Shown: positions 23,675-36,767 of the stretch, piece by piece
Layout: every line of letters begins with the position of its first letter
Numbering within the stretch: the first letter of the stretch is position 1
Assembly: GCF_000166355.1 (NCBI RefSeq)
Contig: NC_014652.1
Span: 1,375,001 to 1,439,000 of the forward strand
Source: Caldicellulosiruptor hydrothermalis 108
Lineage (GTDB): Bacteria; Bacillota; Thermoanaerobacteria; Caldicellulosiruptorales; Caldicellulosiruptoraceae
Length of the DNA: 64,000 bases
Direction: 5' to 3'
The notes under the pieces: model-generated
What the model saw: the letters and a program-made list of their open reading frames with translations, nothing else
Databases searched by the model: none
What the model was told of the DNA's origin: nothing
Position numbers and translations under genes: made by a program

Positions 23675-23708
23675 TACAATTGAATTTCATCTACATATGT
23701 AGTATAAT
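23675..23708 (+). promoter_or_regulatory. Promoter with BlaI-like operators upstream of the 23768 gene
   Basis: TACAATTGAA (23675) is followed by the 12-bp perfect palindrome CTACATATGTAG (23691-23702), which abuts TATAAT (23703-23708). The -35 TTGAAT (23680-23685) lies 17 bases from the -10. The palindrome fits the TACA-NN-TGTA consensus of BlaI/MecI repressors and covers the spacer. Same geometry as 29911-29944. Confidence 0.6.
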
Positions 23709-23767: not shown

Positions 23768-24394
23768 ATGCAAAAAATATTTCGCAATTCAATGGTAATA
23801 TTTTCTTTAATTCTCATTGGATCATTGGTATTATTAAGTATTAGTTTAAAAATCTCTCACATTAAGGCTGACACAATCTTAAATGAGCATAAGCCAGAAG
23901 ACAATAGCTCCGAGAGAATTCATATTATAAAAAACAAGAAGAAATTTATAGCAGATATCATCTCAGTTTTACCCGTTGTTGAAGAAAAGAATATAAACAA
24001 CTCAACTGTGGACAGCAACATAAGTAAAGTAAAAGCAGAAAGGCAAGTACATTATAAAATTATTAAAGCTGTGCTAAATGAAGCCAATCACAAAAGCATC
24101 CTTGGTCTTGCTTCAAACAAAGATATATATTCATTTGTATCTGAAAAAGTCCTAAAAATACTTTTTCCCAAACCTACACAAGATACTTATACCTGTTACT
24201 ATAAGGTAGAACCTGCTGACCCCAAGCAAACCGTTATTTGGTACAAAAAAGGATATTTTTATTTTGTGTACTGCTTCACAGACTCTTACACCATAAATCC
24301 AGCTGACCCTTATGGTGATATTAAAAAAATGGTTCTCTTGGTTGAGAAAATTAAAAACAAATGGATCATAAGCGATTTTTCAAGCAACAATTAA
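23768..24394 (+). CDS. Exported or membrane-anchored protein of unknown function
   Basis: 208 residues; I do not recognise the family. An N-terminal hydrophobic segment (about residues 8-28, with VIFSLILIGSLVLLSISL) is an uncleaved anchor or signal peptide. A polar, low-complexity linker follows to about residue 95, then a compact C-terminal domain with aromatic-rich strands (WYKKGYFYFVYCF near 160). It starts at ATG 23768 after AAGGGGG. It is monocistronic, convergent with the next gene, and driven by a promoter with BlaI-like operators, so it may belong to the regulon of the M56/BlaI pair. Confidence 0.6.
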   Translation: MQKIFRNSMVIFSLILIGSLVLLSISLKISHIKADTILNEHKPEDNSSERIHIIKNKKKFIADIISVLPVVEEKNINNSTVDSNISKVKAERQVHYKIIKAVLNEANHKSILGLASNKDIYSFVSEKVLKILFPKPTQDTYTCYYKVEPADPKQTVIWYKKGYFYFVYCFTDSYTINPADPYGDIKKMVLLVEKIKNKWIISDFSSNN

Positions 24395-26458: not shown

Positions 26459-27616
26459 TTATTCTATTTCTCTAAAATAATATGGATTGAAAAATCTTTT
26501 ATTACCTTCATAATCAGAATAATAGCGATAACAATTTTCAGTATGTTGTGCAAATTTCCGTGTAATTTTGTCTACAAGAATTGCAGTATGATCAAATCTC
26601 CCATCGTTATAATAATCAATTTGCATTATTCCGCCATTATCTAATGAATTTATACTGCCTACTACAACAACGCGTGGACCAGGTGTGTCAATAGATTTAT
26701 AGCTTGTCATATAACTCCAGAAAGCTTCAACATTCTCCCAATTTTTTGAGCCTCCACCAGGACCAGCATACCACCCTTCTTCATATGAACCAGGAACCAT
26801 CATCACTTTGTTTAATATATCGTTCATAGTATCATTTGCTCCAAATCCATACCATAAAACTTGAGATGCAAAGTTTGTGCAATCTCCTCCTCCAGAGGTT
26901 GCATCATAAAACTTGGTATTACGGTTAAACACGTATTTGTTTGCATATTCAACAGCTCTTGATGTACTATAATAATGATTTACTGCTGGCAAACTAAGAA
27001 TACCAACATTACTTTTCAATTCAACATCATTGAAGTTTTTATATACTTTCTTGGAATCTGGAGAAAATTCCTGATCAATCATTTCAGCTAATTCTTTCGG
27101 TTGAAATTCTCTTATTAATTTTTCTTTTGAAATTTCATAGAAACTTAGATCTTCATAATCATGTTCTGTAATTTTCCAGCCATCTTCCATCTTTATTAAC
27201 TTAAATATATTTTCGCCACCACAAATAAAAGGTGGATAGGCATTCTGTCCATCTAATTTTATTTCTAATATAACATTTGCTTGATTACCGTTTATATCAA
27301 TAGCTTTGTAATTGAACTCTAATGGAAATCGTCTTTTTTCGATGTAACAATACCCTTTTTGATAAATATACTTTCTTCTTGCTGTTAAATTTTTCAGAGC
27401 TATTACTTTGTTTTGATTCTGTATTTTAGTCATGTCAAGGTAAGGTGTTATGTCTTTATATTCCATTTGTAAATATGCATCGTACTGAGTGTTGTAAAAA
27501 GATTCAATAACGTTTTTAATGATTTCTTCTTCATTGTTTTTATGTGAATTTGCATAAGCAATGGAATTTGGTATTATTAGAATTAAACATAACAAAAACA
27601 GTACAATTTTTCTCAT
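26459..27616 (-). CDS. Secreted Amidase_6-type cysteine amidase with an N-terminal accessory domain
   Basis: 385 residues. Signal peptide at residues 1-22 (IVLFLLCLILIIPNSIAYA). Residues about 33-190 form a domain nearly identical in its first 50 residues to the extracytoplasmic tail of the M56 protein next door (AYLQMEY, then DITPYLDM and KIQNQNKVIALK). The C-terminal domain carries the Amidase_6 catalytic motif DATSGGGDCTNFASQVL (Cys) and the His in DGRFDHTAILVDKI. Likely acts outside the membrane on peptide or peptidoglycan amide bonds; the substrate is unknown. Downstream of the blaI-M56 pair on the same strand, with 120 bases between. Confidence 0.75.
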   Translation of the reverse strand: MRKIVLFLLCLILIIPNSIAYANSHKNNEEEIIKNVIESFYNTQYDAYLQMEYKDITPYLDMTKIQNQNKVIALKNLTARRKYIYQKGYCYIEKRRFPLEFNYKAIDINGNQANVILEIKLDGQNAYPPFICGGENIFKLIKMEDGWKITEHDYEDLSFYEISKEKLIREFQPKELAEMIDQEFSPDSKKVYKNFNDVELKSNVGILSLPAVNHYYSTSRAVEYANKYVFNRNTKFYDATSGGGDCTNFASQVLWYGFGANDTMNDILNKVMMVPGSYEEGWYAGPGGGSKNWENVEAFWSYMTSYKSIDTPGPRVVVVGSINSLDNGGIMQIDYYNDGRFDHTAILVDKITRKFAQHTENCYRYYSDYEGNKRFFNPYYFREIE

Positions 27617-27736: not shown

Positions 27737-29296
27737 TTACTTAACTCCAAAATCTTTATCTATTTGCTTTTTTATCTGCTCGTAATCAGGTTCTGGTAAC
27801 TTTTGGTCAGTAGAGAATTCATAGAACATTAAGGCCCATTTATCATAGATATGCTTTGTAATTTTCCATGTCCCATCCTGCTTTTCTAATTCAAAAATAT
27901 TTTCTCCATAAGAAATAAATGATGGATATGCTTCTTTTAGTTTTATCTCTAAGTCAATAACTACTTTGGCTTTGTTGCCATCAAGCTCTATGTTCTTATA
28001 ATGAAGTTCATATGGAAAATGTCTCTTCTCAACATAACAGTATTTTTTTTCGTCTGTATATTTTCTTCTGAATACCAATTCTTTGAGAGCTATTACCTTA
28101 TTTTGATTCTGTATCTTTGACATATCCAAGTATGGTGTTATATCTATATACTCCATTTGAAGATAAGCTTTGTACTGCGTTTCATAAAATCCTTCTATGG
28201 TTGATTTGATTGCCTCTATTTCACTGCTTTCAAAACTCAAAATGTCTTTTGCCCAAATTTGAACAAATGCACTGAGAAATATTGTTGTCAATACTAACAC
28301 CACAGCAAACACCTTTGCACCTTTGCTCATTTTCCTTGCCTCCAAACTCATAATAAACCTAAATCTCTCAACAATGCTTTCTTTTCTACCTACCAGACCA
28401 AATGCCGCACCTGCTCCACTTCCTATACTCACCAAAAGTGTGTTATAAAGTACCTCTGCATACTTCCTTTTGCCATCCTTCTTAAGCTTTCTTATTACTT
28501 CTTCGTCACATGAATATTCACATTCTCTATTTAGCTTTAAAACAGCAAAGTATACTAAGGGGTTAAACCAATGAAGTGCATTTATTAATTTACTTAGCCA
28601 TTTAACAAGTACATCTTTTCTCTTGAAGTGTACAAGTTCATGTCTTATGATTAATCTTAAATCTTCTCTTACTATGGCCTTTGCAGGTATTAGCAAGATG
28701 GGCGTAATGGTTCCTATCAGCATGGGTGTTGGTATAATGTCATTTTCTAATACCTTTATCTTTCTTGAAATTCTTTTTAACCTACAATATCTCTCAATTA
28801 TCCTTTTGCAATATTCATTAGAGCATTCTCTTGAGTTTCTTACAAGTATCAGTTTAAACCAAATATACCTCATTAAAAACCATGCGAAAAATATAATGGC
28901 ACCTATGAGCCAGACGTAAACTATAACTTTACGTAAAACTTCAAGATTAAAATAACCAATATTTTCAGAAGGCAGGGCAGTTAAAGCCCCACCTTGTGCT
29001 GTATTTTCTGTTAGTTGTAAGTTCAATGAACTAGTGTTACTGAGTTTTGAGGTTATATGACTGCTGTTGCCTAATATAATACTCTGATTTAGTACTCTAC
29101 TATCTTTCTTACAAAATTTAATCAATACATTCCATGGAATGGTAAAACAAAAAAGCCCTATCATCCAAATATAATACCTTGCCCTTGCGCTCAAATGCTC
29201 TTTAAAGATTTTGCTCAAAATAGCAAATATCAAAACAGCTATGCTACCACCTACTGTCATTACTAAAATCCATTTGAATATAACTTCTATATTCAT
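27737..29296 (-). CDS. M56 (BlaR1/MecR1-type) membrane metallopeptidase sensor with amidase-like sensor domain
   Basis: 519 residues. Membrane segments lie near 8-28, 42-60 and 122-145. A cytoplasmic zinc-peptidase domain has HELVH at 219-223 and YSCDEEVIRKL near 261-271. A fourth membrane helix lies at about 328-348. In BlaR1 the outer C-terminal domain is a penicillin-binding fold; here residues 363-519 are instead homologous to the N-terminal domain of the adjacent amidase. By analogy, ligand binding outside would activate the peptidase and lead to cleavage of BlaI. It lies 7 bases after blaI, which makes a classical repressor-sensor operon. Confidence 0.85.
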   Translation of the reverse strand: MNIEVIFKWILVMTVGGSIAVLIFAILSKIFKEHLSARARYYIWMIGLFCFTIPWNVLIKFCKKDSRVLNQSIILGNSSHITSKLSNTSSLNLQLTENTAQGGALTALPSENIGYFNLEVLRKVIVYVWLIGAIIFFAWFLMRYIWFKLILVRNSRECSNEYCKRIIERYCRLKRISRKIKVLENDIIPTPMLIGTITPILLIPAKAIVREDLRLIIRHELVHFKRKDVLVKWLSKLINALHWFNPLVYFAVLKLNRECEYSCDEEVIRKLKKDGKRKYAEVLYNTLLVSIGSGAGAAFGLVGRKESIVERFRFIMSLEARKMSKGAKVFAVVLVLTTIFLSAFVQIWAKDILSFESSEIEAIKSTIEGFYETQYKAYLQMEYIDITPYLDMSKIQNQNKVIALKELVFRRKYTDEKKYCYVEKRHFPYELHYKNIELDGNKAKVVIDLEIKLKEAYPSFISYGENIFELEKQDGTWKITKHIYDKWALMFYEFSTDQKLPEPDYEQIKKQIDKDFGVK

Positions 29297-29303
29297 CTCA
29301 TCT

Positions 29304-29684
29304 CTACTCCTCTTTTCCTAATAACTTCTTAATCTCCTCAAGCTCTTCTTTTTTTAAGTTTCCACTTTCAACTAATGCTGCTATTAAATCTTTTACAGAG
29401 CCATTAAATAGCTTATTCAATACCCTTGCTGTTTCTATCTTTGCGTATTCCTCTTTGCTAATAGAAGGACTGTAGTAATAAAGTTTATCTTTTTTCTCTT
29501 GCTTTATTGCTTTCTTTTTTACAAGCCTGTCAATCAATGTGTATATGGTTGACTTTTCCCATTTGATGTCTTTTTCTTTTAACCTTTGCACTATCTCTGG
29601 TGCACTCAGGGGCTTTCCTTCTTCCCACAAAACTTTCATAACCTCTAACTCAGCTTCTGATGGCTTTAATAAATCCTTGTTCAT
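29304..29684 (-). CDS. blaI: BlaI/MecI/CopY-family transcriptional repressor
   Basis: 126 residues, the family length. It carries a winged-helix domain (LKPSEAELEVMKVLWEEGKP, then STIYTLIDRLVKKKAI) and a C-terminal dimerisation helix bundle (DLIAALVESGNLKKEELEEI). The ATG at 29684 follows AAGGAGAG; the upstream in-frame extension to 29789 runs through the promoter. Likely represses its own operon and other promoters in the island that carry TACA/TGTA palindromes. A deleted second copy lies at 36426-36500. Confidence 0.88.
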   Translation of the reverse strand: MNKDLLKPSEAELEVMKVLWEEGKPLSAPEIVQRLKEKDIKWEKSTIYTLIDRLVKKKAIKQEKKDKLYYYSPSISKEEYAKIETARVLNKLFNGSVKDLIAALVESGNLKKEELEEIKKLLGKEE

Positions 29685-29701
29685 TTGCTTCACTCTCCTT
29701 T

Positions 29702-29752
29702 TACAATTGTGATTACACATATATTTTACAATAGTAAAAACCAATTTGTAAA
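29702..29752 (-). promoter_or_regulatory. blaI-M56 promoter with BlaI-like operators
   Basis: Minus strand: -35 TTTACA (29747-29752), 18-base spacer, -10 TAAAAT (29723-29728). TACAATAGTA (29727-29736) overlaps the -10, and TACAATTGTG (29702-29711) lies between it and the ribosome binding site. Both are one base from the TACA-NN-TGTA consensus. Suggests autorepression. Confidence 0.65.
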
Positions 29753-29789
29753 GAGGTTTTTGAAAAGTTTTTTGGAGATTTTTATACAA

Positions 29790-30145
29790 AAAGATTCAAG
29801 CCTAAACATGTCTTTCTATTCATCTATGCCGAAAATTAGTTATTAGAACTTATAGTATGATATTTTACTAAAAAATTGAGAGAATGTATTTATTTTTTTT
29901 TGTCTGATCTTACAATTGTAGTGTTACTACATGTGTGGTATAATTGTGATAAATAAAAAACTATTCAAGAGGTGAGTCAAAAATGTTAGGAAATTAGTAA
30001 AGGCAGATTTAAAATGACGCTAATATTAAGCAAGAAAAAATATATTAAAGCAACAATAGTAATATAAAGGCAAAATTACTTAATGTGATAAAAATTTTTG
30101 TATTTTTATTAAAATTTAGAGATATATCAAGGAAGGAGTGAACCT
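29790..30145. other. Intergenic region between blaI and the NlpC/P60 gene
   Basis: 356 bases. It holds the promoter/operator block at 29911-29944, then a good ribosome binding site (AAGAGGTGAG) before an ATG at 29983 that is stopped after four codons. With two single-base corrections the frame would continue to about 30066 (see findings). Otherwise AT-rich with no recognisable gene. Confidence 0.5.
29911..29944 (+). promoter_or_regulatory. Promoter with BlaI-like operators upstream of the NlpC/P60 gene
   Basis: The palindrome TACAATTGTA (29911-29920) overlaps the -35 TTGTAG (29916-29921). CTACATGTGTGG (29927-29938) abuts the -10 TATAAT (29939-29944), with a 17-base spacer. Identical layout to 23675-23708, which supports one shared regulator. 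Confidence 0.65.
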
Positions 30146-33302: not shown

Positions 33303-33701
33303 ATGGAAAATGTTTTAACAAAAGAGCAGCTCTTAGAGTTTATAAGAAAAAACAATATTCAGAGTGTAAGTGATATTTACGAAAGTTTAAAAGATTTGTT
33401 TAAGAATGTACTTCATAGTTTTTTAGAAGCAGAGATTGAAGAAACTCTATGTTATGAGAAATATGATGTTAAAAACAAATAAACTACTAACTCTCGAAAC
33501 GGATATACTCAGAAGACTGTAAAAACAAAATTTGGAGAGATGGAAATTGATATACCAAGAGACAGAGAAGGTGAATTTGAACCAAAGATAATTCCTAAGT
33601 ATAAAAGAAATATTTCTGAAATTGAAGATAAAATTTTAACTGCTTCTATAGAAGCAGTTAAAAAAAACAGATAAAAAAGAGAATATTGTAACCCAGTATT
33701 A
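33303..33701 (+). pseudogene. IS256-family transposase remnant
   Basis: The frame begins MENVLTKEQLLEFIRK and keeps the conserved N-terminal segments (SFLEAEIEETLCYEKYDVKN, then SRNGYTQKTVKTKFGEMEID and IPRDREGEFEPKIIPKYKR). It has an in-frame TAA at 33480, where family members have Lys, and departs from the family after ISEIEDKIL, ending at 33701. The catalytic domain is gone, so no active transposase is made. A 30-bp perfect palindrome sits at the point of departure. Confidence 0.8.
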
Positions 33702-33963: not shown

Positions 33964-35196
33964 TCACTTCAAAATTAAATACTCACTAAATTTGTCGTTA
34001 GTATTGTTTTTCGAATAGTTTCTAATAAATAAATTAGTAGAAGGAGTTTCAGAATATAACATAACATAATTAGAATATCCTTTTTGAGGTTTTAAATAAG
34101 GAATTTTGTAATATTTTAGATCTTTTAATGAAAATATATAAATACCATCTTTCAAGTAATTACCATACCAAGATAAATATCCTCCAGAAATATATGGGTC
34201 TGCAAATGTAACCATACTTGATTTTTTCATAGAATACAATTCAGGATATACTATTACTTTCCATTTAAATGGAGCTTTTGATATATCACATAAAACTATT
34301 TGATCTTGAGAAATTATTCCGTTTATATGTCGAAGAGCAATAACATAATTTTTATAAATCCTTGGCATTACAAGTTCGTTATTTGGAGAAATTTTTGTTT
34401 TTTTCTTTTTTTCGATATTATATAAGTATATTTCTCCACTTTCTATCCTCATTGTATGAGTTTCTATAATATTTGATATACACCAAACTATATTATCACC
34501 ATAAATAGATGGAGGATATATTAATCTATTTTCTTTTTCAGGTATTTTTTCAATTATAGAATATTTTTTTGTTTTCATATCAAATAATTTTATAACTAAA
34601 TAGATAATTCCTTTTTTATCCTTTTCGTAGTTTAAGTAAACAACTTTGCCATTGTGAGCAAATATATCTCTCCACATAATACATGCTTTGGCTTTCATAT
34701 CATCATTAGCTGAAACACTTGTTTCATTACATTTATCAATCAAGCATATAGTATTGGTATTAATATCATATCCATATAACTTCCAATTGCAACTTAGATA
34801 TAAATATCCCTTTTTTCTTTCTCCTTCTATCCAATAGAAATATCTTCCATCAAAGTTTTCAGAAATGCTCAAAAAGTTTTTTTCAGTAATTTTGTGTATC
34901 AACTTTGTATGTCTTTTCTTTAAGTCTTTAATAAAATATGCATCTTCATTATTAGAAAGTCCAATAAATCTATTTGAGTCAATAGTAATAATCAAATTTT
35001 CATCTTTATTCTTTTTAAATGTTTTTAAAAGAATATTATTAAAATTTCCTTCATTTTTGGGAAAATATTCAAAAAGATTTTTACAATATACTATTCGCGG
35101 TAATGGTTGACTATTAATGAATTTAAGAAAAGAAAATAAAATAAAAACAGTTATTAAAATAAATATTTTTTTCGTAGTTTTTGATATATTACACAT
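33964..35196 (-). CDS. Membrane-anchored protein, probable beta-propeller, unknown function
   Basis: 410 residues starting at ATG 35196 after GAGGAGAAG. An N-terminal membrane helix lies at residues 11-28 (IFILITVFILFSFLKF). The rest shows repeated strand pairs of propeller type (YFWIEGERKKGYLYLSCNWK, then NIVWCISNIIETH, GGYLSWYGNYLKDGIYIF). It is not close to the 24430/31970 paralogues in sequence but has the same anchor-plus-propeller plan. Lies 45 bases after the C39 gene on the same strand and is probably co-transcribed. Very AT-rich. Confidence 0.6.
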   Translation of the reverse strand: MCNISKTTKKIFILITVFILFSFLKFINSQPLPRIVYCKNLFEYFPKNEGNFNNILLKTFKKNKDENLIITIDSNRFIGLSNNEDAYFIKDLKKRHTKLIHKITEKNFLSISENFDGRYFYWIEGERKKGYLYLSCNWKLYGYDINTNTICLIDKCNETSVSANDDMKAKACIMWRDIFAHNGKVVYLNYEKDKKGIIYLVIKLFDMKTKKYSIIEKIPEKENRLIYPPSIYGDNIVWCISNIIETHTMRIESGEIYLYNIEKKKKTKISPNNELVMPRIYKNYVIALRHINGIISQDQIVLCDISKAPFKWKVIVYPELYSMKKSSMVTFADPYISGGYLSWYGNYLKDGIYIFSLKDLKYYKIPYLKPQKGYSNYVMLYSETPSTNLFIRNYSKNNTNDKFSEYLILK

Positions 35197-35241: not shown

Positions 35242-36186
35242 TTACCAGACAATACCTCTGTCTTTGCATAACTTAACGAATTCGCTATAATTATCAGTCA
35301 ATTTACATCCGTTATTGTATTTAGATGAATCTGAATAATAAATTTGATGATTTACTGGATCATAACCAATTAATGCAATATAATGCCAATATTCTTTTTG
35401 TCTATCATAACCAGGTAGATGATAGCCACCTGCAACCATATGAATATCAGCAATAACACCATATCCAAATTGAACATCACTTGTTACGTAATTCCATAAT
35501 TCTATTTCTGAAGGAGACCATTTTATTACATGCACAATACCTGACCAATCTCTCATAACTCTTTCCCAGCGGGAGTCAAAAGGCGTACCATCCGTTGTTG
35601 TTTCCAAATCTTGAGCCAAATTATCTTGAGATACAGCAATTGACGGATTACTTCTTTTATAGTATATGTTAGAAGCTTTAAGACAATTGTTAGCTGCAGC
35701 TGGCCCACAATAATAATCATTCTTTTGCAACTCTGAAACAGGATTTAGCGATATAATTGTCGAATTTATTAATATTTGAGACATTGGCTTAAATTCTGAA
35801 AAACTACGGTTGTTTTGAATATATCTTATTCTTTCCAAGAGAGAGGTTTCCATAAGTTTATCTCCTTCCATTTCATTAACAAAATCTTTTATTATGTTTT
35901 CTATCTTTGATTGTGAATTAGCTGTTTCCTCATTTGTTTTAACATTATTTAACTCAGTGAGGAGCAAATTAATGTATCTATATTTTATTTCAGATTTTTT
36001 ATTAGATATAATTAATTGTTCTTTATCGGGTAGCTCAGACTATGAGTTGATAGTTGAAAAATTGCTAGTGTCTTTTGTGGAATTCGATATTTCAGAAAAG
36101 CTTTTACCTGATGAAAGATTGATGCTAAAAATTAACAGTAGAGATAATATAATATAAAAATTTCCCATTTTATTTCTTATTTTCAT
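35242..36186 (-). pseudogene. C39-family secreted cysteine peptidase gene with an in-frame amber codon
   Basis: The full frame starts at ATG 36186, 10 bases after AAAGGAGTG. It encodes a signal peptide (KIRNKMGNFYIILSLLLIF, residues 2-20, ending near LSSG), reads to codon 48 and meets TAG at 36040-36042. It then continues in the same frame for 265 more codons to the stop at 35242. The C-terminal part is a C39-like peptidase domain: Cys in ELQKNDYYCGPAAANNC (codon 160 of the full frame), His in YWHYIALIGYD, Asp in YYSDSSKYN. An internal TTG at 35967 gives 241 residues but has no good site and no signal peptide. Probably inactive unless the stop is read through. Confidence 0.75.
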
Positions 36187-36425: not shown

Positions 36426-36500
36426 TCACTCCCATTTGATGTCTTTTTTTAACCTCCCCTCTAACTCAGCTTCTGATGGCTTTAATAAATCCTTGTTCAT
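36426..36500 (-). pseudogene. Deleted second copy of blaI (24-codon remnant)
   Basis: The frame reads MNKDLLKPSEAELE, exactly the intact BlaI N-terminus, then jumps in frame to GRLKKDIKWE and stops. About 19 codons of the helix-turn-helix are missing and everything after KWE is lost. The ribosome binding site and promoter upstream are essentially identical to those of blaI at 29684. No repressor activity is expected. Confidence 0.8.
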
Positions 36501-36517
36501 TTGCTTCACTCTCCTTT

Positions 36518-36568
36518 TACAATTGTGATTACACATATATTTTACAATAGTAAAAACCAATTTGTAAA
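36518..36568 (-). promoter_or_regulatory. Second copy of the blaI promoter/operator
   Basis: -35 TTTACA (36563-36568), 18-base spacer, -10 TAAAAT (36539-36544). TACAATAGTA (36543-36552) and TACAATTGTG (36518-36527) are in the same places as at 29702-29752. It directs transcription into the blaI remnant and on toward the C39 and propeller genes. Confidence 0.65.
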
Positions 36569-36674
36569 GAAGTTTTTGAAAAGTTTTTTAAGACTTTTGA
36601 TGCAGAGTCATAAGAGAATATGATTAATATTTGACAATCTATAACGATGCAGAAATTAGAATTAACACATAAAA

Positions 36675-36739
36675 AAGCTCCCTTTTCTTGGCATTTATTT
36701 TTATAATTCGTGAGCTATATAGCCAAGACAAGGGAGCTT
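36675..36739 (-). terminator. Rho-independent terminator after aroB
   Basis: An 18-base inverted repeat with one mismatch (AAGCTCCCTTTTCTTGGC at 36675-36692, GCCAAGACAAGGGAGCTT at 36722-36739). On the minus strand it runs into a T tract. Confidence 0.8.
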
Positions 36740-36767
36740 CTTCTTGACTTTGTCAGACTGAGGCATT

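Follow-up and report, generated by a model that had tools for sequence, protein, structure and literature searches.

Organization of the locus

The window analysed here is a stretch of 64,000 nucleotides of Caldicellulosiruptor hydrothermalis 108 (NC_014652.1, positions 1,375,001 to 1,439,000), and all coordinates refer to it. At this locus an island is inserted between aroB on one side and mtnA/MTAP on the other. Its products are secreted or membrane proteins of the Amidase_6, NlpC/P60-like, C39 and propeller-like types. The island also encodes a repressor of the BlaI type and, adjoining it, an M56 protease with the HEXXH motif. The features are listed in Table 1.

Table 1. Positions of the features discussed, in window coordinates
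Feature	Position	Strand	Remarks
M56 (BlaR1-like) sensor protease	27737-29296	-	HELVH motif; PF05569, E 1.5e-53
Intact blaI repressor gene	29304-29684	-	PF03965, E 4e-32; aligned with BlaI 1SD4 over residues 6-122
Own head of blaI	29702-29752	-	same promoter and dyads as the copy
Divergent head of the NlpC-prop2 unit	29911-29944	+	dyads TACAATTGTA and TACATGTGTG; TATAAT
prop3, membrane-anchored or secreted propeller-like protein	33964-35196	-	conserved gene behind the head
C39-like peptidase pseudogene	35242-36186	-	PF13529; TAG at codon 49 (36042-36040)
blaI remnant	36426-36500	-	24 codons in frame; start 36500, ORF end 36429, TGA 36428-36426
Copied blaI head	36458-36604	-	promoter, two dyads, ribosome site, first blaI codons
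Ribosome binding site GGAGAG	36509-36514	-	inherited from blaI; not kept in G011
Dyad O2	36518-36527		CACAATTGTA on minus, TACAATTGTG on plus; 25 bp from O1
Dyad O1	36543-36552		TACTATTGTA on minus, TACAATAGTA on plus; overlaps -10
Promoter TTTACA-18-TAAAAT of the copied head	36568-36539	-	top-scoring minus-strand site from aroB to the propeller gene

The repressor carries the Penicillinase_R domain and can also be aligned with MecI (1OKR). The dN/dS of blaI among the compared genomes was 0.04-0.16. The M56 protein aligned with BlaR1 (8EXP) over residues 11-341 and no further, and no penicillin-binding sensor domain was found at its C-terminus. Its C-terminal domain shares 54% identity with the domain at the N-terminus of the adjacent Amidase_6 protein (26459-27616, minus strand), so the M56 sensor and the Amidase_6 effector may bind the same ligand.

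The copied blaI head

The copied head is a direct repeat of the head of intact blaI (29642-29788), with 95% identity over 147 nt and 113 consecutive identical bases at 36458-36570. These were the only two places of match in a search of the whole genome of the strain (2.77 Mb, one contig). This confirms the claim of an earlier note on this DNA that the promoter, operators and ribosome binding site of blaI had been duplicated almost exactly. The identity of the two heads may be due to recent gene conversion.

The promoter of the copied head is also present 5' of blaI (29752-29723). The two dyads are of the BlaI/CopY type and lie over and just past the -10 hexamer, each with one mismatch to TACANNTGTA. 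Across the genus, in 22 heads that precede blaI or prop3, the two dyads were 23-26 bp apart, and O2 was a perfect TACANNTGTA in several of them, including most of the other prop3 heads. With at most one mismatch allowed, the 2,356 intergenic bases of the island contain 10 TACANNTGTA matches, compared with about 1.3 expected from composition (35.4 per 64 kb). This enrichment is only indicative, since one of the two heads is a copy of the other and they do not count as separate observations. Between the copied head and prop3 on the minus strand, no terminator-like site was found, and no other promoter stands out above chance.

Behind the ribosome binding site, the remnant reads MNKDLLKPSEAELE-GRLKKDIKWE. 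Codons 1-14 of blaI are followed by a single junction codon and then by approximately codons 34-43 minus one codon; the deletion between the two parts is in frame. The in-frame remnant of 24 codons reported previously is thus borne out by the reading frame and by the codon match to blaI. As both parts are represented, the source must have been a longer blaI copy, extending to codon 43 or beyond. The deletion is common to six species (this one, G002, G005, G006, G009, and G010) and, because all six have it, predates their split; the remnant is not a fresh scar. Its identity to the relatives is 90-97%, against 89-100% for the spacer behind it, and in G010 it is frameshifted. It drifts like a non-coding spacer. 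A conserved leader peptide was therefore rejected as the main reading of the remnant. Its blaI codons travelled along with the copied head, and no role for them is apparent.

Genes behind the copied head

The C39 gene is dead or dying. Codon 49 is TAG in the window and CAG in G002 and G005, but the G002 gene has a 5-base loss and other frameshifts, and that of G005 has an altered start codon and insertions. In G006, G009, G010, and G011, the 3' part alone remains. No intact copy was found among the 11 congeners compared, and the lesions differ. The dN/dS of the C39 core (0.07-0.11) points to recent loss. C39 was thus ruled out as an intact target, here by its stop codon and in every congener with the gene by other lesions. 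With C39 broken, prop3 is left as the conserved target.

The head precedes prop3 in all nine genomes in which the gene was detected (G000, G002, G004, G005, G006, G007, G009, G010, and G011), and the dN/dS of prop3 (0.17-0.42) indicates purifying selection. In the genome studied here, the two are about 1.3 kb apart, with the remnant, the spacer and the pseudogene in between. In G004 and G007, which are without C39, the beginning of blaI, with a one-base shift, continues in frame into prop3. Frameshifts interrupt the gene in G006 and G010, and the genus comparison did not detect it in G001 or G003. The earlier proposal that C39 and the propeller gene are both placed under BlaI control hence survives in part: C39 is broken in every compared genome that has it, while the head, the dyads and the propeller gene are conserved together across species.

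The Foldseek matches of the prop3 model were nearly all propellers, which suggests a propeller-like fold, although the model is of low confidence (mean pLDDT 53) and no sequence family backs the assignment. No BLASTP similarity was found between prop3 and the other propeller-like gene. Between two propeller-like genes lies a fragment of a Mutator-family transposase gene (33303-33680), broken and interrupted by a stop codon. The first bases of blaI, read in another frame in G004 (L056, 3424-4698) and G007 (L059), extend the propeller protein at its N-terminus by a lysine-rich segment (MKKGFIKANRNKIRGKGK...).

Comparison of the head across the genus

Twelve genomes of the genus were compared, that of this strain and those of 11 congeners. 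The loose two-dyad pattern TTTACWNWTGTAWWATATAN{5,14}WCANWNRTAAA gave 25 matches in these 12 genomes, all inside the island and distributed over 11 genomes, and the reversed control gave none. The remaining genome, G008 (L060), is entirely without the island: only about 110 bp lie between aroB and mtnA there, an arrangement that represents the empty state of the locus. There, neither the two-dyad pattern nor an ortholog of BlaI was found (best match 33% over 62 residues). Paired dyads were therefore present only where BlaI was present. Scans of a collection of genome contigs (for prop3 and the two-dyad pattern) and of a collection of viral contigs (for the pattern) gave no match; both collections may be without near relatives.

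Among the nine prop3 heads, the hexamers and dyad half-sites were invariant at 21 of 22 positions, including all 12 promoter hexamer positions, versus 53 of 89 positions elsewhere in the core, ribosome site and remnant. The Fisher p for this contrast was 6e-4 (0.03 without G004 and G007) and is only indicative because the species are related. For the same reason, a common history, the conservation counts are not independent.

Reassortment within the island

The left flanks and the downstream bodies of the island reassort, and the breakpoints fall within the repeat. The flank adjoining the NlpC-type head joins blaI in G000, G001, and G003, and joins the remnant or prop3 in G004, G009, and G010. 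The flank on the aroB side continues into the remnant in G000, G002, G005, G006, and G011; in G003 and G004 it leads into unrelated DNA. A switch inside the repeat fits the heads serving as homology for recombination. On the aroB side, a 21-bp inverted repeat (36672-36742, 90% complementary) lies 3' of aroB and is kept in most congeners; it may be the aroB terminator.

A second family of heads, the NlpC type (29890-29996, plus strand), was found in 10 copies in at most eight genomes, before at least three different genes. In 9 of the 10 copies, a ribosome site and, after it, an ORF of 4 codons are kept; examples are MLGN and MFEN, and the stop position is constant. This suggests that reusing entire heads is a general feature of the island. 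No spread of heads to unlinked loci was detected: all 25 pattern matches lie in the island, as do the two DNA copies in the genome of this strain. A wider view would make the island a self-assembling regulon, in which the two repressor-controlled head families, each with a ribosome site and a short leader ORF, act as interchangeable cassettes, recombination between them repeatedly recruits new surface and wall genes to the one BlaI/M56 sensor, and the leader ORFs contribute to regulation. We regard this as doubtful.

Proposed control of prop3 by BlaI

Judging from sequence, conservation, co-occurrence with BlaI and the breakpoints within the repeat, we consider it likely, at a probability of roughly three in four, that the head is a copied BlaI-controlled promoter cassette that would repress prop3 and blaI-M56 together, and that the repeat doubles as homology for recombination. 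BlaI would most likely bind the dyad pair at its own promoter and the matching pair in the copy. Bound BlaI would repress transcription of prop3, formerly also of C39, and of the operon that encodes BlaI and M56. On sensing an extracellular signal, the M56 protease would inactivate BlaI, so that the heads open jointly, and the repeated heads would provide the homology by which the island recombines. Copying of a self-regulated blaI promoter with its first codons before neighbouring surface-protein genes has thus probably placed the island under a single switch. The prediction that BlaI controls the unit behind the copied head is well supported by the comparison of genomes. The broken or missing prop3 of four genomes and the separation of head and gene in this strain count against it, as do the single mismatches of O1 and O2 to TACANNTGTA, a 10-mer that by itself does not suffice for CopY binding.

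The main alternative is that the head is an inert scar, left from a deleted blaI copy and kept similar by gene conversion, with prop3 expressed from elsewhere or never. Similarity of the heads could be maintained by gene conversion in the absence of selection, and the 113 nt of identity between the two heads of this strain is as expected after a recent conversion. The decay of C39, the broken prop3 of two species, and the heads without an intact gene in G003, G004, and G009 are also consistent with a scar. However, the two heads of the other species have diverged at 8-21% of their core positions, and these differences leave the hexamers and half-sites untouched. The two heads that are backed by unrelated DNA have an altered -35 and -10, prop3 is itself constrained, and in G004 and G007 the head adjoins it directly. 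We therefore judge an inert scar unlikely. The more specific suggestion of the earlier note, scar DNA from a second sensor operon, has parallels among the relatives at other places. G003 has a full second blaI-M56 operon, and in G009 a head is followed by the last quarter of an M56 gene, the scar of a second operon; neither of these lies at the position of the remnant. The head of prop3 appears to be a conserved regulatory cassette, more than a scar, although its parts (BlaI, M56 and paired dyads) are ordinary.

Control of the genes behind by translation of the remnant, or by its mRNA, is very improbable: start, stop and ribosome site are retained in several species, and nearly all NlpC-type heads keep a ribosome site and a short ORF, but the remnant is conserved no better than spacer, is frameshifted in one species and has lost its ribosome site in another. 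Least probable of all is a decoy, in which the dyads of the copy would drive no gene but would titrate BlaI and so adjust how the sensor operon is induced; dyads do persist in G003 and G004 at heads without an intact gene, but a pure decoy would not need the invariant hexamers of the prop3 heads, nor the same gene behind the head in nine genomes.

Relation to known systems

The proposed BlaI-controlled cassette resembles the BlaI/BlaR1 and MecI/MecR1 regulons, including that of Clostridium thermocellum BlaI_0696 (PMC8457756), in that blaI lies beside an M56 gene, each promoter has paired dyads, and few promoters are involved. Autoregulation, known from these systems, would be expected here as well. 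Two C. thermocellum BlaI proteins have paired dyads at their own promoters, and one also has them at two further promoters (PMC8457756). The motif reported there consists of GTCTAT repeats and differs from the dyads in this island. The targets of BlaI/BlaR1 and MecI/MecR1 are beta-lactamase and PBP2a, whereas here they would be wall-active and surface proteins. Unlike BlaR1 and MecR1, the M56 protein of the island is without a penicillin-binding domain, and unlike in the BlaI and MecI regulons, the target heads are recent copies of the head of blaI with its first codons.

CopY, BlaI and MecI recognise TACA/TGTA dyads (PMC7253601). In CopY promoters, pairs of TACANNTGTA dyads are most often 26 bases apart, and the TACANNTGTA 10-mer alone is insufficient for CopY binding (PMC7253601). 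The paired TACANNTGTA dyads and the protein superfamily are shared with CopY/CopR (PMC7253601), but the island has no copper exporter. The 126-residue repressor has no cysteine and so lacks the copper-binding CXC motif; CopY was thus excluded as its identity.

What is unusual about the locus is that the repressor's own head and first codons are reused and shuffled within one island. Mobile promoters, as reportedly described by van Passel, Nijveen and Wahl in 2014, likewise involve the copying of a promoter sequence before unrelated genes. In contrast to these, the copies found here are confined to one island together with their own repressor and are not dispersed. Mobile promoters receive a passing mention in PMC8049555.

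The literature on BlaR1 in this group that we found comprises the C. thermocellum study alone, and no published description was found of an M56 sensor with a non-beta-lactam domain linked to wall-active enzymes and surface propellers, as at this locus. The island illustrates a simple route by which a repressor may gain targets: an autoregulated head is copied, start codons included, before neighbouring genes and then recombined. The steps can be read because a dozen related genomes represent different states of the same island.

Two further TACANNTGTA-like sites, TACAATTGAA and TACATATGTA, were observed at 23675-23701, 5' of a gene for a secreted protein of 208 residues (23768-24394). They may mark another BlaI target.
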